Of a stretch of 39,642 nt of DNA, positions 7,755 to 35,752 are shown piece by piece. The stretch comes from Erysipelotrichaceae bacterium (GTDB lineage Bacteria > Bacillota_I > Bacilli_A > Erysipelotrichales > Erysipelotrichaceae). Numbering within the stretch: position 1 is the stretch's first letter; every line of letters begins with the position of its first letter. Location: NCBI GenBank assembly GCA_022767445.1, contig JALENJ010000001.1:1-39642 (forward strand). The letters are read 5' to 3'. Under the pieces are notes generated by a model. That model worked only from the letters and a program-made list of their open reading frames with translations, was not told the origin of the DNA and ran no database searches. The position numbers and the translations under genes were made by a program.

Positions 7755-8189
7755 TTAATATTGCTCCTTTTCGTTTTCAATATTTACGTTAATTTTCGTG
7801 CGATATGAGTTAGACAAATTATCAATAATGCTCGAATAAAATGCAGATACAAATTTGTCCATAGTTGCTTTCTTCTGCATTTCCTTTTTTATTGCTTCGC
7901 GAATTACAGGCTTTTTTTCTTCTATCGTTTCTTTTGCAATTTCAACGATTTGTTCTTTTAACTCTTTGTTTACTAAATGTTGTAATAACGGTTGTGTCTT
8001 GGTATATGAACTGGTTGGTATTCTTCCGTTCTCATCAACTTGTTTGTTTAAAACTTCACTAACGATTGCACCGACTAGATTTTCATTACCTAAAGTCTCA
8101 ACCATTCCTTGCTTTATAATTTCTTTTGTTAAATTCTTGATGTATTCTGTATCGAGTTGTAAACTCATTCCCATTAAATTTTTTTCCAT
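7755..8189 (-). CDS. Helical phage protein, unknown
   Basis: 144 residues, predominantly charged helix (KELKEQIVEIAKETIEEKKP then VIREAIKKEMQKKA). No family recognised. GAAGGAAA upstream of the ATG at 8189 supports the start, although MGMSLQ five codons later is possible. The ends are polar and there is no signal or membrane segment. Probably a cytoplasmic early protein. Confidence 0.5.
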   Translation of the reverse strand: MEKNLMGMSLQLDTEYIKNLTKEIIKQGMVETLGNENLVGAIVSEVLNKQVDENGRIPTSSYTKTQPLLQHLVNKELKEQIVEIAKETIEEKKPVIREAIKKEMQKKATMDKFVSAFYSSIIDNLSNSYRTKINVNIENEKEQY

Positions 8190-8231
8190 AATTTATTTTC
8201 CTTCTATATAAGTCTTTCTTATCCTTTCTGT

Positions 8232-8999
8232 TTATAAAATTAGACTTTGCTGTACGTCTTTTAATATTTTCTGCTTTGCTAATTTGTAATAGTCTTTCTT
8301 GATTTCAAAACCATAACAAGATCTATTTATTTCTGCACATGCCCTTAGTGTTGAACCACTACCAGCACACGGATCTATCACAACATCACCCTCATCTGTA
8401 AATATTTCTATTAGTTGCTTCAATAACTGTACTGGTTTCTGTGTGGGGTGTATTTTCGGTGTTGTTGTATCTCTTTCCCACTTAAACCAGTTGAATATCA
8501 TGCGATTGTTGTTATTAAATTTCGGTAATTTATCACGGTACAAAACAACCGCATACTCAGTAGCGCCGACTATCTTCATATTTGCTTTTAGGACTTGTCC
8601 TGAATAGTTTTTTACAAATACTAGTGGATAACTTTTCATAAATCCGTACTTCTTCCCATACTCAATAATTTGTTGCATTTGTTCAAAGGCACAGAACACG
8701 ATCATTGCCGGTGCTTTTCCGACTTCTTTCGGCTCTTTAATTAGCATCTTTGAGCAAAAGTGCATGTATTCAGGAATTCTGAAGTAGCCATCGGTATCAA
8801 AGAATGATGATTTTGCCTTTTTGCTTTCACCGTTCTTGTTATCGCCGTCCACATACCATTGGGGACTGCTTGCGTATGCATTTTCAGCAAGGTTATACGG
8901 GATATCGGCAATAACCAATTGCGCCTTTGGGATTTGGTAACGTTTGTAATTTTGAAAGCTATCGTTAAATAGTTCTATTTTCTGCTGTTTTGTTTTCAT
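8232..8999 (-). CDS. Phage DNA methyltransferase (beta-class, N6-adenine or N4-cytosine)
   Basis: 255 residues. Motif IV comes first (LVIADIPYNLAEN near residue 30) and the AdoMet-binding motif I last (VVIDPCAGSGSTLRACAEIN), after HPTQKPVQLLKQLIEIF. This order is that of beta-class amino-methyltransferases (CcrM, DpnA types). The usual DPPY or SPPY is here DIPY, a change in the second position. No restriction enzyme gene is nearby, so it is an orphan, most likely protecting phage DNA from host restriction or regulating it. Its first 35 bp overlap the end of the helicase-loader gene. Target sequence cannot be read from the gene. Confidence 0.88.
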   Translation of the reverse strand: MKTKQQKIELFNDSFQNYKRYQIPKAQLVIADIPYNLAENAYASSPQWYVDGDNKNGESKKAKSSFFDTDGYFRIPEYMHFCSKMLIKEPKEVGKAPAMIVFCAFEQMQQIIEYGKKYGFMKSYPLVFVKNYSGQVLKANMKIVGATEYAVVLYRDKLPKFNNNNRMIFNWFKWERDTTTPKIHPTQKPVQLLKQLIEIFTDEGDVVIDPCAGSGSTLRACAEINRSCYGFEIKKDYYKLAKQKILKDVQQSLIL

Positions 9000-9447
9000 A
9001 CGCTTTATCCCATACCCTTTCTATTTCTTCATCTGTTAGTGGTGTGTTATCTGCGTATGTGTTCCACCACTTCACTAATTCTTCTTTTGTATCAACATCA
9101 TGTGTAGCAATCAGTACAGCGCAATCTAGCAATATTTCTCTTCTTATTCTCTGTGTCCCAGCTATTGCTAGTGGTTGCTGTTTTTCTTCTAGCATCTGCC
9201 CCCACATGTACTCAGGCATCGCCATGACCTTTGATTTTAATTGTGCTGCTGTAGGAGGATAGTTTGAGTTACCACTCTTGAAGTAACTATCTAACGCTCC
9301 TGCTACTGCAATCTGATCAACATCTGCAAGTGTGATTACAAAAGAGTTAAAAATATCAATAATTTCCTTTTTTGTTTTTCTTGCGTAGTACTCCGGATAT
9401 CTTACTCGCAAAGTTTTCAACAAATTTCTTACTTGTGATTTTTCCAA
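8965..9447 (-). CDS. Replicative helicase loader/inhibitor (G39P-like)
   Basis: 160 residues. The N terminus (LLKTLRVRYPEYYARKTKKE then IIDIFNSFV) and the following ALDSYFKSGNSNYPPTAAQL with a Pro-Pro-Thr/Ser turn fit the G39P family, which brings the hexameric helicase to the phage origin. The C-terminal part is acidic and helical. The frame has no early ATG; the start is a TTG at 9447 with AGGAGG about 11 nt upstream. It follows the origin-like region and replisome gene, as expected for a loader. Confidence 0.65.
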   Translation of the reverse strand: MEKSQVRNLLKTLRVRYPEYYARKTKKEIIDIFNSFVITLADVDQIAVAGALDSYFKSGNSNYPPTAAQLKSKVMAMPEYMWGQMLEEKQQPLAIAGTQRIRREILLDCAVLIATHDVDTKEELVKWWNTYADNTPLTDEEIERVWDKAYENKTAENRTI

Positions 9448-9479
9448 TTTTCGAAAATCCTCCTAATATAGATAAAAGT

Positions 9480-9596
9480 TGCAACTTTCGCCAGCACACA
9501 CTATTTATATTTCTTATATATGTATGCACTATCTATATTTCTTATTATTCTTATACTTCTTTATATTCTTATCTTTCTTATATTCTTATATTGCTG
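9480..9596. other. AT-rich, pyrimidine-biased non-coding stretch (probable origin unwinding region)
   Basis: On the plus strand 9501-9592 is nearly all A, T and C, with repeated TATATTTCTTAT/TATATTCTTAT units (about 9506, 9533, 9562 and 9580). No gene fits. It adjoins the tandem repeats in the replisome gene, so an easily melted origin element is a reasonable reading; not proven. Confidence 0.5.
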
Positions 9597-9645
9597 TTAG
9601 CTCCCTGTTAGCTCCCTGTTAGATTCCCTGTTAGATTCCCTGTTA
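9593..9645. repeat. Tandem 11/12-bp repeats, iteron-like (CCCTGTTAG core)
   Basis: Plus-strand units are partial CTGTTAG at 9594-9600, CTCCCTGTTAG at 9601-9611 and 9612-9622, ATTCCCTGTTAG at 9623-9634, and ATTCCCTGTTA at 9635-9645. A further CCCTGTTAG is at 9705-9713. They form the 3' end of the replisome gene, where lambda-type phages often carry their origin iterons. The unit length switches from 12 to 11 bp, which changes frame and sets the stop codon. Confidence 0.75.
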
Positions 9646-9983
9646 CCCTGTGAGTCTGTGGCTTGATATTTTGCGTAATTTACTATCGTTATAAGCCTTC
9701 CACACCCTGTTAGTTCGTCTGTTATTTCCCCTGTTGATTTTAGGTGATTTAGTGCAGTGCGTACATTCATGCATGTTAAACCTGTATTTTTAGATAGCGA
9801 TGGTAAGGATTCAAGAACTTGACCTTTTTTTATTTTGATTGTTCTAAATTCTTGTTCTTCATCCAGCCAACTAGCACGCAATAGCAGATAGTGCCACAAG
9901 TGCGCAGTATTAGGGTCTTTAAACCATCGCCAATTCAGCAATGAACGATAATCCTTAATCCATCCACTATCATTTCTACTCAT
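9597..9983 (-). CDS. Phage replisome organiser, N-terminal winged-helix type
   Basis: 128 residues. The N-terminal part (KDYRSLLNWRWFKDPNTAHL then WHYLLLRASWL, KKGQVLESLPSLSKNTGLT and VRTALNHLKSTGEIT) is the winged-helix DNA-binding domain of Firmicutes phage replication initiators. It then ends in a repetitive NRESNRESNRELTGS tail encoded by the tandem repeats. Full-length relatives often continue into a DnaD-like domain; here the frame stops within the repeats, so this is either a short form or a slippage-truncated one. AAGAGG before the ATG at 9983. Likely binds the adjacent repeats to start phage replication. Confidence 0.75.
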   Translation of the reverse strand: MSRNDSGWIKDYRSLLNWRWFKDPNTAHLWHYLLLRASWLDEEQEFRTIKIKKGQVLESLPSLSKNTGLTCMNVRTALNHLKSTGEITDELTGCGRLITIVNYAKYQATDSQGNRESNRESNRELTGS

Positions 9984-9993
9984 ACTTCACCTC

Positions 9994-10440
9994 TTAGAAC
10001 GGTAAATCATCAGAACTTACATCTACGTTAGGAAGATAATCGAAGTCTGACATTTGCTGCGGTTTTGGTGCCTGTGTTGGTTTAGGAGCATATGTTTGTT
10101 CCTGCTGTCTTGGCTGAGTGCTGTGTAACAAATTGACTGAATTAGCTAATACTTCAACCACATACACCCTCTGACCATCACGATCATAGCTGCGTGTCTG
10201 TAGCCTTCCTTCAACGCCAACTGTATCGCCTTTGTGCGCATAATTTCCTAGAAAATCAGCACTTCCACGCCATGCAACACAGTTAATAAAGTCTGCTGAT
10301 TGCTCGTTATTGTTCTTCTGCGCTTGCGATAATCGTCTATCGCACGCAACTGTGAATGAAGCAACGGATAATCCGCTTTGTGTTTTTCTGAGTTCAACAT
10401 CCTTAGTTAGTCTACCGACCAAAACCACACTGTTGATCAT
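9994..10440 (-). CDS. ssb: Single-stranded DNA-binding protein
   Basis: 148 residues from the ATG at 10440 with AAGGAG 8 nt upstream; an in-frame TTG two codons earlier is only 2 nt from that site and is rejected. OB-fold core with MINSVVLVGRLTKDVELRKT, FINCVAWRGSADFLGNYAHK and KGDTVGVEGRLQTRSY, then a Pro/Gln-rich linker and the acidic DDLPF tip that recruits partner proteins. Works with RecT and YqaJ in phage recombination and replication. ATGA overlap with rusA. Confidence 0.95.
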   Translation of the reverse strand: MINSVVLVGRLTKDVELRKTQSGLSVASFTVACDRRLSQAQKNNNEQSADFINCVAWRGSADFLGNYAHKGDTVGVEGRLQTRSYDRDGQRVYVVEVLANSVNLLHSTQPRQQEQTYAPKPTQAPKPQQMSDFDYLPNVDVSSDDLPF

Positions 10441-10868
10441 TGGCAATTCTCCTTATTTATTTCTGACAATCTCACTACAACTCTAGGATTGTCATCATAT
10501 GCTTTGTATACATACAGCTCTGTTACCTGCTTATCGTCCAAGAACGCTACGCCATTCAAGCTATCAAGAATAATCTTGGCAATGTTATCGGAATCAGGTT
10601 TAACAGTTGGAAGCAATGTACATGCGATTGCTTCGCGTTGCTTTTTCTTACTGAATGATTTTGGAATTGGGAAGTATGCAAGTATCTGAGCCTTTAATGC
10701 TGTATCAGTTGGCTGATATCCAATCGGCAATGATTCTTGTGCACAGAATCTAACTTTTCGCTCATAATCTGCTGTATCTTTTGGGGTATAAGTGAAACCA
10801 CGCTTTGTAAAACGTGGTCTCCCTTTTCCCTTTGGTTCACCTGGAACGGTAATGATGATGTCATTCAT
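10437..10868 (-). CDS. rusA: RusA-family Holliday junction resolvase
   Basis: 143 residues starting MNDIIITVPGEPKGKGRPRF, with AGGAG about 7 nt upstream of the ATG at 10868; longer in-frame starts run through recT. The PKGKGRPR loop and the VKPDSDNIAKIILDSLNG stretch with DDKQVTEL carry the acidic metal ligands (two Asp in KPDSDN and one in FLDDKQ) of RusA nucleases, which cut four-way junctions made during replication and recombination. It overlaps recT and ssb, forming a recombination cluster. Confidence 0.93.
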   Translation of the reverse strand: MNDIIITVPGEPKGKGRPRFTKRGFTYTPKDTADYERKVRFCAQESLPIGYQPTDTALKAQILAYFPIPKSFSKKKQREAIACTLLPTVKPDSDNIAKIILDSLNGVAFLDDKQVTELYVYKAYDDNPRVVVRLSEINKENCQ

Positions 10869-11649
10869 GGATTTCTCCTGTTTCTGCATCGATGATTTGT
10901 GATAAGTCAATATCATTCTTAACTTCTTCCATATGATCAGAAATCGAGGATTTAACTGTTTCATCCGTATTGATCTTCGAAACTAACTCTGTGGAAAGTG
11001 GTGCATATTTTAATGCTTGTTTTAGAACTGTTTTCTTTGCCATGCTTTCAAAGTCTGATTGCCATGGCCCATTATTGAAAGTTTTTGAAAACTTCTTCGC
11101 ATGCTTTAATACATCATCATGAGACATTACTTCAAAACCATATCCACCATTTGTATATTCAATAACCGCATAGTATGCAGTAGGGTTTCCACGATTGCTC
11201 ATTGCTGGAACATGCACTAAATCGGAATGCAACCCTAACTCATACTTGAATTCATCATTTTCATATACTGTTTCTGTGCGGATGGTTTTTATTTGTCCTG
11301 AATTGTACGCTAGTTGTAATAGTCCTTTATATCCAAGTTGGAATTGACAACTATTTCCATAAGGAATTAAGTATGCTTGACCTAAAGGTGTATTAGGCTC
11401 TAGTCCTAATTGTGCACTCTGCATCATTGCAGATAAGAATGTTGATGGTGAACATGCCTGTAACTTAGGATTGTTAGATACTGCAGATAATGTGATACGT
11501 GTAAAACGCTCTGGAGTAATTGTTGAAGGAAGAGCCTTCTCAATCTCCGGTTTCATGATTGCAATATAGTCTTTAATTGTTTTATTTTGTGTTGATACTC
11601 CAGCTTTTGATACTGTTGCTGGTGCCTTAGCTGCTTTAATTTCTGTCAT
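10861..11649 (-). CDS. recT: RecT-family single-strand annealing protein
   Basis: 262 residues, the usual length. N terminus low-complexity, then LSAVSNNPKLQACSPSTFLS, MMQSAQLGLEPNTPLGQAYL and CQFQLGYKGLLQLAYNSGQI, all strong RecT signatures, followed by YYAVIEYTNGGYGFEVMS and DFESMAKKTVLKQALKYAPL. Anneals complementary strands made single-stranded by the exonuclease encoded just upstream. ATGA overlap with that nuclease gene; AAGGAG 8 nt before the ATG. Confidence 0.97.
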   Translation of the reverse strand: MTEIKAAKAPATVSKAGVSTQNKTIKDYIAIMKPEIEKALPSTITPERFTRITLSAVSNNPKLQACSPSTFLSAMMQSAQLGLEPNTPLGQAYLIPYGNSCQFQLGYKGLLQLAYNSGQIKTIRTETVYENDEFKYELGLHSDLVHVPAMSNRGNPTAYYAVIEYTNGGYGFEVMSHDDVLKHAKKFSKTFNNGPWQSDFESMAKKTVLKQALKYAPLSTELVSKINTDETVKSSISDHMEEVKNDIDLSQIIDAETGEIHE

Positions 11650-12599
11650 AATGTTTTCTCCTTGATTTTTGTTATTTTGAATACTCTTGATTGAGTTGTT
11701 TTTAGATATTTTTGGTAAATATCTGGATGCTCACTTTCTAATCGTTTGGCATCGATTGATGATCTATTTTGCGTTTTCCATGAGATTTTGTACGCGGCTG
11801 TGAATCCGCCTTCATGCTCACCAATCTCTGCTTTAATTTTGTTTTGATACTCCGCTTTGATTTTGTTTAAAGCATCTATCTGTACATCTACATCTTGAAT
11901 GGATTGTAAGCATTGTGTGACTGTGCTTGAGTAGCTTAGATCAATCACATCTTGTGTATCATTTTGATATCGTTTCTGGAGCGCGTTAGATGTGCTTCCC
12001 GAGCCGTCTATATCTGGGGTAGTATTATTTACCACCAAATCCCAAAACGCTTGTTCTGCGCTTAATAACGCGTCTATATGCTCGTCATTTCGGTCAATCT
12101 GTAGGATATGAAATTGTGTGTTGTCTTTTTTGACTGCGATGTACCACTTTTCGCACCCCGTCAGCATCATGTAATGCATGCACTGCCAGTAGTACTGTGG
12201 CGGAATCTCTCCATCCTGATAAGCCGTCTTATTCCAGGCAGATGTTGTCTTACACTCCAATCCAGCATTTTCACCAACGACCATACGATCAACATGTCCA
12301 GCTAAGAATGGATATTCTTTGCAAAGGTATGTCATGTTAGAACGTCGTACAGATTTGCTTGTTTCTAAGCAGAATCGTTTAGCTACGATTTCCTCTTCTT
12401 CTGTACCAAACCAAACCTGTAGCTTATTGCTAATATCATCTGGTTCAAGCTGACCAGTTTTCTCAAGCCATAATTCATATTGAGATTTCCACGGATTGAC
12501 ATTCATTATCGTTCCAGCATCACTTCCACCAATAAACTTATGTCTATCCTTTGCTGGATCTCCGCTAAATGGCTTTTTATAAAGTGTTAATTTTTCCAT
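11646..12599 (-). CDS. YqaJ-type viral recombinase exonuclease
   Basis: 317 residues. The lambda-exonuclease/PD-(D/E)XK fold is visible: HKFIGGSDAGTIMNVNPWKS, then AGHVDRMVVGENAGLECKTT (catalytic Asp, Glu and Lys in DxnExK order), and GEIPPQYYWQCMHYMMLTG. Digests double-stranded ends so that RecT can anneal the exposed strand, giving a two-component phage recombination system. A C-terminal helical region may contact RecT. GAGG before the ATG lies in the end of a 49-residue upstream gene. Confidence 0.93.
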   Translation of the reverse strand: MEKLTLYKKPFSGDPAKDRHKFIGGSDAGTIMNVNPWKSQYELWLEKTGQLEPDDISNKLQVWFGTEEEEIVAKRFCLETSKSVRRSNMTYLCKEYPFLAGHVDRMVVGENAGLECKTTSAWNKTAYQDGEIPPQYYWQCMHYMMLTGCEKWYIAVKKDNTQFHILQIDRNDEHIDALLSAEQAFWDLVVNNTTPDIDGSGSTSNALQKRYQNDTQDVIDLSYSSTVTQCLQSIQDVDVQIDALNKIKAEYQNKIKAEIGEHEGGFTAAYKISWKTQNRSSIDAKRLESEHPDIYQKYLKTTQSRVFKITKIKEKTL

Positions 12600-12736
12600 T
12601 TGATTTCCTCGTATTTCTTATTCCAATTGAGTTCTGCATTCTCCATTGCTTCATCAAACATCTCTTCATATTTATCTTCTTCAGATGTGATAAATGATGG
12701 GAAATCTTCTTCTATAATCACTAGATCACTCTTCAT
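12587..12736 (-). CDS. Small acidic phage protein
   Basis: 49 residues, MKSDLVIIEEDFPSFITSEE then helical and acidic (EEMFDEAMENAELNWNKKYE). The start overlaps the end of the preceding zinc-binding gene and the 3' end overlaps the exonuclease start by 13 bp, supplying its GAGG. No family recognised; coding status supported by tight operon packing. Confidence 0.55.
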   Translation of the reverse strand: MKSDLVIIEEDFPSFITSEEDKYEEMFDEAMENAELNWNKKYEEIKWKN

Positions 12737-12887
12737 CTTCTGTATCATCTTCCTTTTCCTCTATATCCTCCGATGAGCAAAATGGGCATACTGGATAAGT
12801 CCGATAAGAATAATCGTGATATCCCTTTTTCCATTTCATATCGTCATCTGCAAATGTTCTTTGACAGTGTTCGCATATCATCTTCAT
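12726..12887 (-). CDS. Small zinc-finger-like phage protein
   Basis: 53 residues starting MKMICEHCQRTFADDDMKWK. Two Cys pairs, CEHC and CPFC, separated by 29 residues suggest one zinc site, and the C terminus is very acidic (EDIEEKEDDTEDEE). Overlaps its downstream neighbour by 11 bp. Function unknown. Confidence 0.6.
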   Translation of the reverse strand: MKMICEHCQRTFADDDMKWKKGYHDYSYRTYPVCPFCSSEDIEEKEDDTEDEE

Positions 12888-12891
12888 AGCC

Positions 12892-13032
12892 TTACTCTGC
12901 CATCTCCTCTGCAGTTAAAGGACGTTGAGAATAAGAGTATTGAAGAACGGCGTTACCTAGCATGTATGCGATAAATGCAAGCCCTAGAAACACAGCTAAT
13001 GCTGCTTTAATTGTGTTTTTGATTGTCTTCAT
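12892..13032 (-). CDS. Small single-pass membrane protein
   Basis: 46 residues starting MKTIKNTIKAALAVFLGLAF, one hydrophobic segment of about 20 residues then a polar tail (SYSQRPLTAEEMAE). Its start lies inside the end of the upstream gene, in another frame. No family recognised. Confidence 0.5.
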   Translation of the reverse strand: MKTIKNTIKAALAVFLGLAFIAYMLGNAVLQYSYSQRPLTAEEMAE

Positions 13033-13363
13033 GGCTTAATTCATCTTCTATCAACTTTCTAAGGCCATCAACTAGCTTTTTAGCTTCCTGTTCGATTGCT
13101 TTTTCAAGTTCTTCATTGTTTAGCTTGTTGTTTGGAATCTTTCCTTTTTTGGCGTAATCTTCCGCTTTCTTGATTGCCTCTTCTTTACTTCCGCAATCTT
13201 TGCCACACATATATGCGTTCTTTGCGATTAAATTTGCTAAATTCTTTATTTTTGGATGTTCATCTAAGTATGATAGAAGCGTTGCGAATTCGCATGCGAC
13301 ATCTATTTCTTTTCCTTGTACTGATATGGCGATTGCTCCCTTGTGATTTTCTACTGTAATCAT
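13007..13363 (-). CDS. Helical phage early protein
   Basis: 118 residues from the ATG at 13363 (MITVENHKGAIAISVQGKEI), preceded by a purine-rich GAGAGAAAAG. The first 30 residues look beta-rich, then ATLLSYLDEHPKIKNLANLI and a long charged helix (EELEKAIEQEAKKLVDGLRK). Two cysteines in YMCGKDCGSKEE. Not recognised. Confidence 0.5.
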   Translation of the reverse strand: MITVENHKGAIAISVQGKEIDVACEFATLLSYLDEHPKIKNLANLIAKNAYMCGKDCGSKEEAIKKAEDYAKKGKIPNNKLNNEELEKAIEQEAKKLVDGLRKLIEDELSHEDNQKHN

Positions 13364-26431: not shown

Positions 26432-28114
26432 TTATTTCTTTTGAACGTACTTCAAGCAGTCCAGTGTAACTGCAGCTAAGATAATAATACCTTCAAATAC
26501 GAACTGTAGGTTAGTATCAATACCTAGGATCGTTAATGAGTATGTTAGAGCTGTAAAGATCATAACACCTACAACAACACCAGAGATCTTACCAATACCA
26601 CCCGAGAAGGAGACACCACCTACTACACAAGCAGCGATTGCGTCCATATCCCAACCTTGTCCATACGCAGCAGATCCTGATCCAACCATACGATTACATT
26701 CCAACCATGCGCCAAATCCATAGAGAACACCAGCCATTGCGAATGCCATAATCGTTACTTTAAATACATCGATACCAGATACTGCAGCGGCTTCTGGATT
26801 TCCACCAACCGCATATAAGTTCTTACCAAATGTCGTCTTATTCCAGATAAACCATACAATTACCACTGCGGCTGCTGCCCATAAGATAATTGTTGGGAAG
26901 TTACCAATCTTTGGAATAATCATCGCTGGAATTTCATTTTCGATTGCGCCGAAAGATACACCCTTTGTTGCATAAGTAACGATACCGAAAATGATTAACA
27001 TATTTGACATCGAAGAAATAAATGGATGCATCTTATACTTAGCTTTAAAGAAACCAGCTAAAGATGTAAAGATAGTACATAGTACGATACATACAAGTAA
27101 GGCAAATACAGCTCTTACACCAATTGGTAATCCTGTAAAATCAAACACTTTACCAAATACAGCACCTGTATTAATACCTTTATGCATGATGATTGTTGAG
27201 GCTACCATACCCATACCAATCATACGACCGATAGATAAGTCGGTGCCTGCCAACATCAATAGACCTGCAGCACCCAAAGCCAAGAACATTCTAGGAGATG
27301 CCTGTTGTAGAATATTCAAGATGTTATTTACAGTAAATAACTGTGTATGCTTGATTAATGGTGTCACAATACCTAAACCAATGAATACCAAGATAATAAC
27401 CAAATACAATCCATTACGTAATAACCACTCTTTGCGGTTGAATGTGTATTTGTAGTGTTCATAGCGCTGTGCCATGTTTTCTGTAAAGCTGAACTTCGAC
27501 ATCTTTAACAGATCAATCAAGCGATAGCGTTGTACGAAAGCTTCATGTTTACGATCCTTGATAGCCTGTAAATCTTTTTGATAGGTTAGTTTGGCATCAA
27601 AGAGTTTGTTCTTAAAAACATAGTTTTCATCTTTGATTTCCTGTTTTGCGTCTGCGTCATTGCCTGAAAGCTTGGATAGATTCTGTGCATGTACCTTCTT
27701 GACTTCCGCAGCAGTTTCACTATATCTCTTTGCGGCCAACTCCTTTTCAGCAGCACAGCTAGCTACAACTTTGTTGTAGTAGTCTTTATCAAAGTGCTCA
27801 TTTAGATAACTAACGGCTTGTTTGATTAACTCATCAACCTGTGGCTTATTTTCTTTTTCTTTTGCTTGGGCAATTTGTAAAGCTTTCTTCGCTTCTAAGA
27901 TACGATTTTCTCTTTCTGCTTTTGTTAAGCTCTTATCACTCTTCGTATTTTGAATTGTACTTAAGAGTTCAAGTGTTTTATCTGTTCCATCTTTACGAAG
28001 TAAATCAATCTTAGATTGAATTTCACCTACGTAATCCGTAATCGGTTTTAATAAATTTTCTTCTTGGTCAACAGAGAGAACCCCTGCTTGTAATTTTTCG
28101 TTATTCTGACTCAT
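26432..28114 (-). CDS. mglC: Galactose/methyl-galactoside ABC permease with large N-terminal extension
   Basis: 560 residues from the ATG at 28114 (MSQNNEKLQAGVLSVDQEEN) with GGAGGGG 8 nt upstream. The C-terminal 325 residues are a standard MglC/RbsC permease: first membrane helix LYLVIILVFIGLGIVTPLI near residue 236, PRMFLALGAAGLLMLAGTDL then SIGRMIGMGM, the EAA-like GGNPEAAAVSGIDVFKVTIM, and AACVVGGVSFSGGIGKISGV. The preceding 230 residues are unusual: charged, helical, probably coiled coil (AERENRILEAKKALQIAQAK, KYTFNRKEWLLRNG at the junction), on the cytoplasmic side. E. coli MglC is about 336 residues. Last gene of mglBAC. Confidence 0.93.
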   Translation of the reverse strand: MSQNNEKLQAGVLSVDQEENLLKPITDYVGEIQSKIDLLRKDGTDKTLELLSTIQNTKSDKSLTKAERENRILEAKKALQIAQAKEKENKPQVDELIKQAVSYLNEHFDKDYYNKVVASCAAEKELAAKRYSETAAEVKKVHAQNLSKLSGNDADAKQEIKDENYVFKNKLFDAKLTYQKDLQAIKDRKHEAFVQRYRLIDLLKMSKFSFTENMAQRYEHYKYTFNRKEWLLRNGLYLVIILVFIGLGIVTPLIKHTQLFTVNNILNILQQASPRMFLALGAAGLLMLAGTDLSIGRMIGMGMVASTIIMHKGINTGAVFGKVFDFTGLPIGVRAVFALLVCIVLCTIFTSLAGFFKAKYKMHPFISSMSNMLIIFGIVTYATKGVSFGAIENEIPAMIIPKIGNFPTIILWAAAAVVIVWFIWNKTTFGKNLYAVGGNPEAAAVSGIDVFKVTIMAFAMAGVLYGFGAWLECNRMVGSGSAAYGQGWDMDAIAACVVGGVSFSGGIGKISGVVVGVMIFTALTYSLTILGIDTNLQFVFEGIIILAAVTLDCLKYVQKK

Positions 28115-28129
28115 ATATAACCCCTCCAA

Positions 28130-29638
28130 TTACAAATACATTGCGCTGAGTCTCAGGAGCTCTTCCTGATTTGTTTCTTTGGTATTTACAATACCTGCTA
28201 AACGTCCATTGGACATAACCCCTATACGGTTTGTAATACCCAATATCTCTGGCATTTCAGATGAACATACAATGATTGTCTTACCCATCTTTGCCATCTT
28301 GATAATTAAGTCATAGATTTCATACTTAGCACCTACATCAATACCTCTGGTAGGTTCATCCATCATGAATACTTTTGGATCTCTTTCTAACCATTTACCG
28401 AAGATAATCTTCTGTTGGTTGCCACCAGATAGTGATGTAATCGCATCATCTGGTCCCATGCATTTTGTATGCATGATTGCGATTTCTTTGACGGTTGCTT
28501 TTGTCATTTTCGCATCTGAGACAACAATACCATTCTTATAATGGTCAATATTTGCAATGCATGTATTGAATGTTAAATCACTCTTTAAGAATAGACCATT
28601 TGCTTTTCTTTCTTCTGTAATCATCGCAAAGCCACTATCCATCGCCTCTTTCGCACTATTGAAGTTCATGAGCTTACCATCGTAATACACGCGACCTGCA
28701 GCACGTGTACGAACACCGAAGATTGTCTCCATGAGTTCTGTTCTACCTGCACCTACAAGTCCATATAGACCAAATATCTCACCTTGTTTTACTTCAAAGT
28801 TGATATCATCCAAGTATGGAGCGTACTTCGTAGATAGATCACGTACGGTAAGTATTGTTTCACCTGGTGTATTGTCCACTGGTGGGAAACGATTATCGAG
28901 TGAGCGTCCAACCATGGCCGCAATTAGATCATTCATATTTGTCTCTGTCACGTTTTTGGTCATGATCATCTTACCATCACGCAATACAGAAACCTGATCA
29001 CAGATATCAAAGATTTCATCCATCTTATGAGAGATATAGATAATTGAGATGCCCTGATCTCTTAATTTTCTCATCATCTGGAATAGCTTTTTAACCTCAG
29101 GTTCCGTTAGGGAAGACGTAGGTTCATCTAATACAATTAATTTAGAATGATAAGATATCGCCTTGGCAATCTCACACATCTGTCTTGCGGATACGGACAT
29201 CGTACGCATTGGTTGTGTTAGATTTACAGTAATTCCCAAGCTTCTAAATAGTTCTGAAGCCTCTTTCTTCATACGACCTTCATCGATGACTCCAATCGCA
29301 TTCTTTGGATATCTTCCCAAGAATAAATTATCGACAACACTACGTTCTAGACATTGATTTAACTCTTGATGTACCATCGCAATTCCATTTTCAAGAGCAT
29401 CTTTTGGGCCTGAGAAATTCACTTCTCTTCCATTTAGAAAAATACTACCCTCATCTTTTTGGTATGTACCGAATAGGCACTTCATCATCGTAGATTTTCC
29501 TGCACCATTTTCACCCATCAATCCCATGATTGAACCTGGCTTGACATCTAGGTTAATGTGATCAAGAACACGATTTCTACCAAATGATTTCGACATACCT
29601 TTGATTGATAAAATTGTCTTATCGTTTGTTTCTCTCAT
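28130..29638 (-). CDS. mglA: Galactose/methyl-galactoside ABC transporter ATPase (double domain)
   Basis: 502 residues with two ABC domains. First: Walker A GLMGENGAGKSTMMKCLFG, signature SVSARQMCEIAKAISYHSK, Walker B LIVLDEPTSSLTE. Second: degenerate Walker A GLYGLVGAGRTELMETIFG, signature SLSGGNQQKIIFGKWLERDP, Walker B VFMMDEPTRGIDVGAKYEI. This is the usual MglA/RbsA arrangement, energising sugar import by MglC. Encoded between mglB and mglC; 15 bp separates it from mglC. Confidence 0.97.
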   Translation of the reverse strand: MRETNDKTILSIKGMSKSFGRNRVLDHINLDVKPGSIMGLMGENGAGKSTMMKCLFGTYQKDEGSIFLNGREVNFSGPKDALENGIAMVHQELNQCLERSVVDNLFLGRYPKNAIGVIDEGRMKKEASELFRSLGITVNLTQPMRTMSVSARQMCEIAKAISYHSKLIVLDEPTSSLTEPEVKKLFQMMRKLRDQGISIIYISHKMDEIFDICDQVSVLRDGKMIMTKNVTETNMNDLIAAMVGRSLDNRFPPVDNTPGETILTVRDLSTKYAPYLDDINFEVKQGEIFGLYGLVGAGRTELMETIFGVRTRAAGRVYYDGKLMNFNSAKEAMDSGFAMITEERKANGLFLKSDLTFNTCIANIDHYKNGIVVSDAKMTKATVKEIAIMHTKCMGPDDAITSLSGGNQQKIIFGKWLERDPKVFMMDEPTRGIDVGAKYEIYDLIIKMAKMGKTIIVCSSEMPEILGITNRIGVMSNGRLAGIVNTKETNQEELLRLSAMYL

Positions 29639-29750: not shown

Positions 29751-31001
29751 TTACTTTAGAAGTGAAGTGTAGGATGTTGCGTTATCTGTCTTAACCATGT
29801 TAATCGCAAACGCATCATACTGACTAGGGTTACCTAGACGATTTGTGATATTAGACTCTGTTTGTCCATCACCACCGATGTATTCAACATCAAGTTTTAG
29901 AAGATCATCATATTTCTCAAGCAATGGTTGATATGTTGAACTTAAGAAATTATCAGAAGCGTTATAGATATTTAACCAAACTTTCTTAGTTTCACTATTT
30001 ACTTCCTTAGATATTGGTTCATAAACCTTTGTTGCGTCCATGAAGTCCGTGTAGTTTTCAGCAGTTACAGCTAGGTTCAATGCATAGAATGAACGATCTT
30101 CTTCGTTGTATTCATAGTCAACGCCCTCTTCAAGAACGTTACCAGCTTCATCTGCTGTTGCGATACCAGTATTTACATCAACACCATCTAAAGCATTACG
30201 TAATACTCTAAGTGTTAAGTAAGCCTGTACGTCAGCATGTTGTGAAATTGTTCCACCGTAACCCTCAGCGATAGCTGCTACAGCATCACTATTTGCGTCA
30301 TATCCAAATGTAGGTACCTTGTTTTCTTTCGCCCAAGCTGTAAACATTGACATACCCATACCATCATTGTTAGAAACGATGACATCAATCTGATCACCAA
30401 ATGAAGCAGACCATGTACCAATAGCGTTACCAGCTGTTGCGGCATCCCATGTGGCACCTGCAGAGTTCTTCATCTCTTGAGAAGCTAACTCACGAATTGT
30501 GAAATCTAGACCGTCAATCTTACCATCCTTAACGATAGAAGAAGAACCATCAGTATTTGTTCCAGCTGGTGATGGATCAATATCTCCATCCTTTTCAACA
30601 CCTGTACCAAGAGCCTTACGAGCACCTCTTGTACGAGCGATAGAATCATTATGACCAACGTCACCGATTGCTAATACATAACCGATAACACCGTCACCAT
30701 TGCGGTCGATCACATCTTTGTGGGCAGCGATGTAATCAGCTACCATCTGACCTTGCAACTCAGCACCCTGGTTTGCATCAAATCCTACATAGTATGTATC
30801 CTTGTTGAAATTGAGAGCTTCTTTGTCTAATTCACCTGTCGTACTGTTTGAAGGCTGGCGATTATACCAAACAAGTGGCTTGCTAGCATTCTCTGAACTA
30901 GATCCAGAATTTCCACCATCGGCAGTACTAGAACCACCTCCACATCCAACAAGTGATAGAGCTACCACTGCAGATGTCATAACCGTAAATAATTTCCTCA
31001 T
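29751..31001 (-). CDS. mglB: Galactose/glucose-binding lipoprotein, circularly permuted
   Basis: 416 residues. Lipobox ALSLVGCGGG (lipidated Cys20) and a Gly/Ser linker. The mature chain starts with PLVWYNRQPSN (residue 42), which matches the middle of E. coli MglB (VPVVFFNKEP), continues through YYVGFDANQG, the EF-hand-like calcium loop DRNGDGVIG (99-107), VGHNDSIAR (His117, Asp119, Arg123), TWDAA (Trp185), VSNNDGM and FGYDAN (Asp235). It ends with VWLNIYNASDNFLSSTYQPL (341-360, Asp350/Phe352) and AFAINMVKTDNATSY, which match the start of normal MglB (IGVTIYKYDDNF, ALAINLVDPA). So the first ~80 residues of the family sit at the C terminus, after a linker (about 300-338). Sugar ligands Asp14, Phe16, Asn91, His152, Asp154, Arg158, Trp183, Asn211 and Asp236 of E. 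coli all have counterparts. Probably functional. Confidence 0.93.
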   Translation of the reverse strand: MRKLFTVMTSAVVALSLVGCGGGSSTADGGNSGSSSENASKPLVWYNRQPSNSTTGELDKEALNFNKDTYYVGFDANQGAELQGQMVADYIAAHKDVIDRNGDGVIGYVLAIGDVGHNDSIARTRGARKALGTGVEKDGDIDPSPAGTNTDGSSSIVKDGKIDGLDFTIRELASQEMKNSAGATWDAATAGNAIGTWSASFGDQIDVIVSNNDGMGMSMFTAWAKENKVPTFGYDANSDAVAAIAEGYGGTISQHADVQAYLTLRVLRNALDGVDVNTGIATADEAGNVLEEGVDYEYNEEDRSFYALNLAVTAENYTDFMDATKVYEPISKEVNSETKKVWLNIYNASDNFLSSTYQPLLEKYDDLLKLDVEYIGGDGQTESNITNRLGNPSQYDAFAINMVKTDNATSYTSLLK

Positions 31002-31043: not shown

Positions 31044-31057
31044 TGAAAGCGTTTTCA
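31044..31057. promoter_or_regulatory. cre site (CcpA operator) for mglBAC
   Basis: TGAAAGCGTTTTCA fits the consensus TGNAANCGNTTNCA at every fixed position. It lies about 10-20 bp downstream of the predicted transcription start, so CcpA binding would block elongation when preferred sugars are present. Confidence 0.85.
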
Positions 31058-34124: not shown

Positions 34125-35752
34125 TTAGTTATTACATGTTTGTTTGTAATAGAAAGCATAACCACCAACAAGGACTGCCATCAACAACATTCCAGCATAA
34201 ATGGATAAGTTGTTTGTATCAGATGTCTTTGGTGTGCTTGGTGGGATATCCTTTGTATTCGTAACTACGAAACCAGTTGTCGCATCACCTGTGATACTAA
34301 CTGTATATCCAGCCATTGGGTCCTCAACAATAGAATACTGGATATATACACCTTGATGATAGAGTTCAAGATTCGTGAAAGTATGTTGCCAATTGTTGTT
34401 AGCATCTAATACTGCACTCAAACCTGTATCTACCCCATCCGCATATAGATGTACGACTGCTTGTGTTCCAGCTAATCCAGACCATCTCTTTTCAACCGGA
34501 ATATCCACTTTAATAGAGCTGTTTTGGATTGTACGGATTGCACCACCATGGTATATGGTGTTGGATCTAATTGATAACCTGTAGGAGCTACCTTTTCTCT
34601 AACTGTATATGTACCCTGTGTCAATATACCAGAAGTCACCGTTCCATCTGGTTGGATGACATCAAATGTCGCGCCAGGTAAAGTAACAGTATTATCATCA
34701 GCATCCACCTTGATTAGCTTAATCCTATTTGCTAATTCACCAGCTGCTGTACCACCAGAAATAGCTGATTCATAAGTTGATACGCTTGTTACTGTTTGTT
34801 CATCAGCAGTCAGATTAGCGGAATTCTTTAACTTTGTTCCTTGTGTATATGTTGACTTATATTCCAAGATTTAGGAATCATTTACGATGTTACCCATTTG
34901 GATTGTAAATGACTTATTATCAGGGCTAAATGTAAGAATTGGTGCTAGGTTGATTGTTGCATCATAGCTTTGAATATCACCAATTGCGTCCATTGTTACT
35001 TTTCTTAATAAGAAAGAACTTGGGATATATGTTTCGTTTGTGGTTGCGTTATTTAAGTTATCTGTAATGACTAAGTTTGTAAGTATTCTACCCGCATGGT
35101 TAATACGTACCAACCAATCAGCTTTATCATGATCAGCGCTATCTCTATATCCCCCACTTCATCAAATACTCATTTGAAAGTGGAGCTGGTCCCTCGATTA
35201 CAATATTAGTGCCATTACCAGTTGTGATACTACCAACACTACCATTTACAGTAACATCGAGTTGATTTGTACCATTTGTGACAATTAAATCTCTCTTAAA
35301 TGTAGCAGCTAACCCAAGAGTTCCACTAACATTATATTGATTTTCAACCCAGTTCGTAAATGTAACTCTGATATTGCCACCACTATATGCATATGGATTA
35401 ACATGGGCTGTTGCGATAACTGTCACACCATCTGCACCATATAGATTAAAGTCAACCGCTGATGAATTCGTAGGAAATGCCATTTGATTTGGAAGCTCGA
35501 TTTCAAAATAATCACCTGCATGAAAACCTGTTCCATTCGCACTTGCCTCCCAATCCATGCTCAAAAAGAAATCAGCACTATGATAGATATGGTCTACTTC
35601 TTGACGTTGGCTATTCAAAATTCTAAGATCACTTACTGTCGCATAAACCTGTGTTGGTCCTGCCGCATTTACTTTCATTGATAATAATGAAATACACAAT
35701 AAAAAAAGCATAATCAATGCTAATAAAATCCATGACTTCTCTGTTTCCTCAT
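34125..35752 (-). pseudogene. Sortase-type surface adhesin, decayed (four or more lesions)
   Basis: Parts of one protein are spread over frames. From the ATG at 35752 (GGGAGG upstream) only ten codons are open; a missing base is needed to join the signal peptide SWILLALIMLFLLCISLLS. The adhesive-domain part runs to EYLMKWGI, where a G5 run (35155-35151; four G expected) shifts frame; the next part starts YRDSADHDKADWLVRINHAG. A TAA interrupts after IQMGNIVNDS (34873-34871) in the same frame (ILEYKSTYTQGTKLKNSANL). A further shift near YTMVV (about 34550) leads to the Cna-B-like piece VDIPVEKRWSGLAGTQAVVH and GYTVSITGDATTGFVVTNTK, then TPKTSD, a membrane helix and a KQTCNN end. Domain order (adhesive, SpaA/Cna-B repeats, sorting signal) fits MSCRAMM/pilin-type proteins. 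Confidence 0.9.

Follow-up and report, generated by a model that had tools for sequence, protein, structure and literature searches.

The closest described systems to the importer analysed here are Escherichia coli MglABC and Treponema pallidum MglB-2 (Tp0684). The retrieved portion of PMC4990184 reports the permuted residue order of T. pallidum MglB-2 together with its spread in treponemes and Gram-positives, and a distribution of Tp0686 homologues similar to that of MglB-2. Within that portion Tp0686 is named once and MglC never, no N-terminal permease domain is described, and the MglB orders that we call P2 and P3 below are not mentioned. In our literature searches 'TP0686' was found in PMC4990184 only, and searches on the domain, the permease and the operon found no paper describing the MglC N-terminal domain.

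We analysed a stretch of 39,642 nucleotides from an Erysipelotrichaceae bacterium (contig JALENJ010000001.1), referred to here as the window. It encodes an operon in the order mglB-mglA-mglC on the minus strand, with a long mglC in third place. The locus resembles E. coli MglABC in its B-A-C gene order, in an MglA with two nucleotide-binding domains, in an MglC-type core and in having MglC and MglA as its best NCBIfam models. It differs in that the window MglB is permuted and both subunits scored under the NCBIfam cut-offs. The features were as follows:

26432-28114, minus strand: long mglC, ATG at 28114, stop at 26432-26434, 560 aa
27437..28114, minus strand: residues 1-226 of the MglC-like permease, its cytoplasmic N-terminal domain (predicted helices, profile A3, dN/dS)
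26432..27436, minus strand: CUT2/MglC-type permease core, residues 227-560 and stop (PF02653, NCBIfam MglC, fold)
28121..28127, minus strand: Shine-Dalgarno GGAGGGG of long mglC, read directly, 6 nt 5' of the ATG
28130..29638, minus strand: MglA-like ATPase of 502 aa, with both nucleotide-binding domains in a single chain (NCBIfam MglA, 665.7 bits)
29751..31001, minus strand: mglB-like lipoprotein, circularly permuted, order P1 (doubled-profile offset 380 of 381; 5jx2 match)
29754..29987, minus strand: MglB residues 339-416, corresponding to the N-terminal piece of canonical MglB (doubled profile)
31044..31057, minus strand: cre-like palindrome TGAAAACGCTTTCA upstream of mglB, read directly

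The palindrome, which resembles the cre consensus, is a possible catabolite control site. Elsewhere in the window, at 34125-35717 on the minus strand, three neighbouring ORFs resembled pieces of one cell-wall-anchored surface protein, possibly broken, with a secretion-like start, Cna-B-like repeats and a sorting-signal-like end.

The long mglC gene and its permease core

The gene product is a membrane subunit with an MglC-like core and about 226 predicted cytoplasmic residues in front of it. The core matched BPD_transp_2 (PF02653) over residues 264-548 with 101.3 bits, above the curated cut-off of 26.8. Its best NCBIfam match was MglC (NF007014), which aligned from residue 227 with 271.4 bits, and as this is under the cut-off of 386 we named the protein MglC-like. 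The MglC model (336 positions) was matched from its position 9 and therefore contains no such N-terminal domain. Hydropathy was calculated in 19-residue windows; the first with a mean above 1.6 started at residue 229, placing the first membrane helix at about 229, and none of those starting at residues 1-214 exceeded 0.33. Together the three boundaries (264, 227 and 229) gave an extension of about 226 residues, close to the roughly 230 of the preliminary description.

AlphaFold2 modelling of the whole protein (86 sequences) resulted in a mean pLDDT of 74.3 and a pTM of 0.52, with about 76-92 per block in the domain (residues 10-230). The core had the fold of a type II importer, matching HmuU with Z 16.7 over 244 residues and BtuC with Z 14.8 over 287, a match that rests on a model with a core pLDDT of only about 50-86 per block. 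As the best BtuC alignment started only at model residue 218, the N-terminal domain has no counterpart in BtuC. The N-terminus of the core is presumably cytoplasmic as in BtuC, and the cytoplasmic orientation of the extension follows from this.

The extension is real, translated and under purifying selection, the last judged by dN/dS against one near relative. The ATG is preceded by the strong Shine-Dalgarno sequence listed above, and at least 4 contiguous Shine-Dalgarno matches were found at 78 of the 90 long-mglC starts examined (own copy and 89 relatives), compared to 18 of 271 internal candidate starts at codons 185-235 in the same rows. Against the nearest relative, L010, the extension gave a dN of 0.169 and a dS of 1.289 (ratio 0.131), with 41, 32 and 90 differences at the three codon positions over 226 codons; the ratio for the permease core was 0.048. 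The ribosome site, the start kept in relatives and the third-position bias of the substitutions thus bear out the earlier claim that the start is fixed and the extension translated. It had also been asked whether the extension was a misannotated separate gene. A separate gene or wrong start was ruled out by a single open frame, found in the window and in 89 aligned relatives (selected by a match beginning at or before residue 30). A 565-aa form of MglC starting at TTG was discarded as a mechanical artefact.

Structure, conservation and distribution of the N-terminal domain

The domain is conserved and predicted to form a long, all-helical bundle, and it matches no Pfam family or solved structure convincingly. 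When modelled by itself with AlphaFold2 (76 sequences) it reached a mean pLDDT of 95.0 and a pTM of 0.84, with predicted helices at residues 15-59, 65-148, 154-204 and 210-224. The helix lengths, taken without coordinates, suggest two antiparallel hairpins that have the 84-residue helix in common and are linked to the membrane close to the centre. The spacing between the columns of residues 132 and 163 ranged from 28 to 51 residues, and the length variation of distant members was centred at about residue 150, which fits a hairpin tip. K, R, D and E made up 39% of the domain with a net charge near zero (mean net -0.1 for residues 13-204 over 76 rows), in agreement with the charged helical region previously described before the first membrane helix.

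Six positions were invariant in the 76 divergent rows (L39, R40, G43, A82, K186 and F225), and D187, H190, E219, N220, Y221 and Y223 were kept at 90% or more. The positions that persist over this deep divergence lie towards the membrane and at two places on the rod. The juxtamembrane E-N-Y-x-Y-x-F stretch reads EHYKYTF in the window and ENYKY[TNS]F in most relatives.

Pfam searches with residues 1-232 matched no family in the window copy at E 0.01 and none in more than 2 of the 76 members. Sequence and profile searches of the PDB found no relative of the domain, and Foldseek against the PDB gave nothing for the domain or the whole protein at E<=0.001, which is not the same as a new fold. Foldseek against viral models likewise returned no domain match at E<=0.001. 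Structure comparison with VIA produced helical-bundle background only, with a best Z of 8.6. BAR/F-BAR domains (Foldseek best E 0.10, Z about 7) fell within this background, and the 14-3-3 fold scored Z 7-8 over about 120-134 residues.

We gathered 105 long-MglC records, from Bacillota, Atopobiaceae and Treponema saccharophilum. In the family of the window, 10 of 145 genomes had a whole-length match running from residue 1-11 to the end at 64-100% identity (own copy counted); the other matches listed started no earlier than residue 185, and in 34 of the genomes there was no match at E<=0.001. A search of 84,980 named species genomes gave 350 relatives, and the best 80 of these 350, which were retained, all had an identity of 66% or more in the best segment, with a match beginning at or before residue 16. 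Mean pairwise identity over 90 rows (1,500 random pairs; own copy and 89 relatives) was 61% for the domain and 86% for the core. In 100 rows compared, two pairs of records had identical MglC (L116/L161 and L085/L091). Distant long MglC were obtained by profile searches of the phylum and the class, from which 11 and 2 operons were opened, respectively. The first 11 were 20-27% identical to the window in the domain and 48-56% in the core. A plasmid of T. saccharophilum encodes a long MglC of 562 aa, annotated 'galactoside ABC transporter permease', with a domain profile E of 8e-33 and an MglA 66% identical to that of the window. A plasmid of Agathobacter rectalis also encodes a long MglC.

In the operons opened the domain was always joined to a permease. 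At E<=1e-4, profile A3 hit 20 of the 395 class genomes, with the domain fused to MglC in 19; the 20th had only a hairpin in a PotA-type ATPase, which two of the 19 also have. The first profile search, of 392 phylum genomes at E<=0.01, gave 28 genomes, 17 of them with long MglC and the other 11 with weak, short matches (E 5e-4 to 8e-3). A profile of the hairpin only matched in 25 of the 392 genomes at E<=0.001, with weak hits to several further proteins among them, so the hairpin likeness may be that of a generic coiled coil. In the PotA-type ABC ATPases L208, L209 and L210 the signature motif is preceded by an inserted helical hairpin similar to MglC domain residues 41-97 (E 1e-5 to 1e-6). These ATPases belong to another ABC transporter in genomes of the group with long MglC; the insert differs in lying within an ATPase and in spanning only about 55 residues, and the similarity may be convergent coiled coil. 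The domain as phage or mobile cargo was considered and dropped, as viral contigs contained no relative. The domain is also encoded, at 48-49% identity, in two human faecal 'Bacteriophage sp.' records of 4.9 and 9.8 kb that carry no annotation; these (accessions MT838761.1 and MT836545.1) are perhaps bacterial DNA filed as phage.

Trees of MglA and the MglC core, with the domain columns excluded, place long MglC in one clade apart from short MglC. The branch separating 31 long from 19 short rows had 100/100 support, and a second tree, in which T. saccharophilum and two more distant operons were added and some rows thinned, again split 29 long from 16 short rows at 100/100. In both trees the short rows are all from the family of the window, the short operon L176 is omitted (run of N), and the tree program warned that long branches meet.

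The neighbourhood downstream of mglC was also recorded. Among the 11 distant operons opened first, 7 (L150, L151, L152, L153, L155, L157 and L159) have a small predicted membrane protein of one family (open frame of about 110-137 aa) directly after mglC. In many Lachnospiraceae long operons (L039-L118, for example L242 at 7873-13358) the genes downstream encode a sensor histidine kinase and a response regulator, along with one or two canonical sugar-binding proteins, and the set is perhaps a sugar-sensing system controlling the importer.

Residue order of the partner MglB

MglB order was called with a profile doubled head-to-tail (unit of 381 positions), in which a permuted protein appears as one match at a shifted offset. 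The window MglB matched the solved glucose-binding lipoprotein 5jx2, which we take to be Tp0684, in a single stretch (39-416, E 2e-88), whereas canonical entries such as 1glg were matched in two stretches. It thereby shares its order with T. pallidum MglB-2. The window MglB is of type Ic, a circularly permuted sugar-binding protein with the canonical N-terminal strands at the C-terminus, and the permuted MglB previously reported in the same operon was recovered as order P1.

Four orders were found beside long MglC, with offsets of about 0 (P1), 55-63 (P2), 142 (P3) and about 298 (canonical); in the P2 rows L150, L151, L152 and L159 the main match runs from 124-128, and the first piece, at offset 63-64, scores only 2-7 bits as a weak second match. 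P2 begins near the calcium loop and P3 inside the C lobe. MglB was readable in 102 records (it was unreadable at L040, L044 and L099), and 100 of these were permuted: 92 P1, 7 P2 and 1 P3, leaving 2 canonical. P1 was the order in all 10 long operons of the window's family, its own included, and in both plasmid operons (T. saccharophilum and A. rectalis). Among the loci of the best 80 of the 350 relatives, 77 had a readable MglB, 72 a complete P1 and 5 cut by a contig end with a P1 C-terminus. The 13 distant long operons were more mixed, with 3 P1, 7 P2, 1 P3 (L149) and 2 canonical (L153 and L154); L149 and L153/L154 share one genus code. All 19 short operons classified had canonical MglB, which in most cases gave a pair of separate matches that followed each other in canonical sequence. 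On the tree MglB order changes at least 5 times, and P2 as a single clade is compatible (AU p 0.27). The four orders look like repeated circular permutation within one clade.

Searching the same 145 genomes with the window MglB (E<=1e-10) gave 21 genomes with matches, 10 full-length and 11 partial within residues 27-313. The full-length matches fell in exactly the 10 genomes with full-length long MglC, so in the family of the window neither long MglC nor permuted MglB occurs without the other. This answers the concern that the extension might be absent in all relatives with permuted MglB. The co-occurrence that the preliminary description asked about held at the level of the family but was not strict beyond it. 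L153 and L154 have canonical MglB beside long MglC, indicating a link that is clade-wide and not obligatory, and the P2, P3 and canonical orders beside long MglC indicate that the domain is independent of one particular permutation.

Possible roles of the domain

The importer to which this membrane subunit belongs is a glucose/galactose ABC transporter of CUT2 type, from a distinct clade that combines long MglC, MglA and a usually permuted MglB. Our working reading is that the domain serves as an arm packing against MglA; we hold it tentatively, at clearly less than an even chance. Two MglC subunits pair with one MglA in this family, so the importer would carry two domains beside the ATPase. 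Each would be an arm resting on MglA, with the conserved juxtamembrane stretch (EHYKYTF in the window) as its anchor, and may stabilise or gate the MglA-MglC assembly. The two rod ends tolerate changes in sequence and length and would thus probably be spacers rather than a specific docking surface.

The ATPase offers hints only in this direction. Of the binding partners proposed in the preliminary description (the ATPase, a regulator or another membrane complex), it is the ATPase to which the rate data below weakly point. The window MglA scored below the cut-off of its best NCBIfam model (NF008215, cut-off 828). In 100 of 100 operons checked mglA lies directly upstream of long mglC on the same strand, and in the 13 distant long operons MglA was 60-70% identical. 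At a core distance of 0.5-0.6, MglA distance was 0.331 in long (38 pairs) versus 0.458 in short operons (42 pairs). At 0.4-0.5 the values were 0.338 (225 pairs) and 0.345 (37 pairs), and at 0.3-0.4 they were reversed, 0.354 (2 pairs) versus 0.300 (31 pairs). The mean MglA/core ratio was 0.646 in long and 0.735 in short operons, from pairs that are not independent. Measured against the MglC core, MglA thus seems to evolve a little more slowly in the long clade, a weak and partly inconsistent signal. We counted 34 long-specific MglA positions, 13 of them within 201-250 and 451-502 (binomial p 0.013, with the bins picked after seeing the data); these regions are the C-terminal parts of both nucleotide-binding domains. 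We read the slower MglA at 0.5-0.6 and the long-specific positions as no more than hints of such packing; a rapidly diverging domain fits a loose tether equally well.

The domain and the permuted MglB may instead have no functional relation, both having been fixed in one ancestor and travelling since as an mglBAC unit, a reading to which we give only slightly under an even chance. One gain is enough to account for long MglC on the trees. The operon has a patchy spread across genera and is present on plasmids of A. rectalis and T. saccharophilum, and L153 and L154 keep the domain with a canonical MglB. Chance linkage does not, however, predict that the changes in MglB order would all lie within the long clade and none among the short rows, which here are a small sample of 19 from one family.

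Other readings look beyond MglA for a partner. The domain could be a docking platform for a separate cytosolic protein (for instance a sugar kinase, HPr or another PTS regulator, or a protein of signalling or the cytoskeleton) that couples uptake to metabolism or regulation. The highly conserved polar residues R40, K186, D187, H190 and K161, which a plain coiled coil would not need, favour such a platform, as does the presence of a sensor kinase in 53 and a response regulator in 42 of the 100 loci examined (RefSeq names them so in L242). This kinase/regulator pair acts at transcription, however, and is missing from the operon of the window and from most distant long operons; no cytosolic gene is constant in the neighbourhood, and the 20-27% identity of the domain over the clade is low for a conserved partner surface. 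We consider docking unlikely. We rate as more improbable still that importers are clustered in the membrane through coiled-coil pairing between the domains of adjacent transporters. The long helical prediction and a non-significant Foldseek list dominated by dimeric BAR/F-BAR domains (best E 0.10) would agree with pairing, but the fold scores stay within the helical-bundle background (best Z 8.6) and the charge of residues 13-204 is near neutral over the 76 rows (mean net -0.1), which is not the case for membrane-binding BAR domains.

The importer type and the permuted MglB order were known; the long permease domain of this importer is new to the literature searched. This domain of about 226 residues, absent from Pfam, is the hallmark of a transporter class found in abundant gut bacteria and in at least one treponeme. 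In its boldest form, which we regard as a long shot, long MglC would define a separate glucose/galactose importer class that extends from Bacillota of the gut to treponemes and probably takes in the main glucose importer of T. pallidum. Its arms would take over part of assembly or gating from the binding protein, loosening the docking demands on MglB and allowing repeated permutation into four orders, one a possible return to canonical. With four MglB orders, the clade offers a natural series in which to study the effects of circular permutation and of membrane tethering on a solute-binding protein. Should the orthologue in T. pallidum also carry the domain, it would be an unexamined part of that spirochete's glucose uptake.
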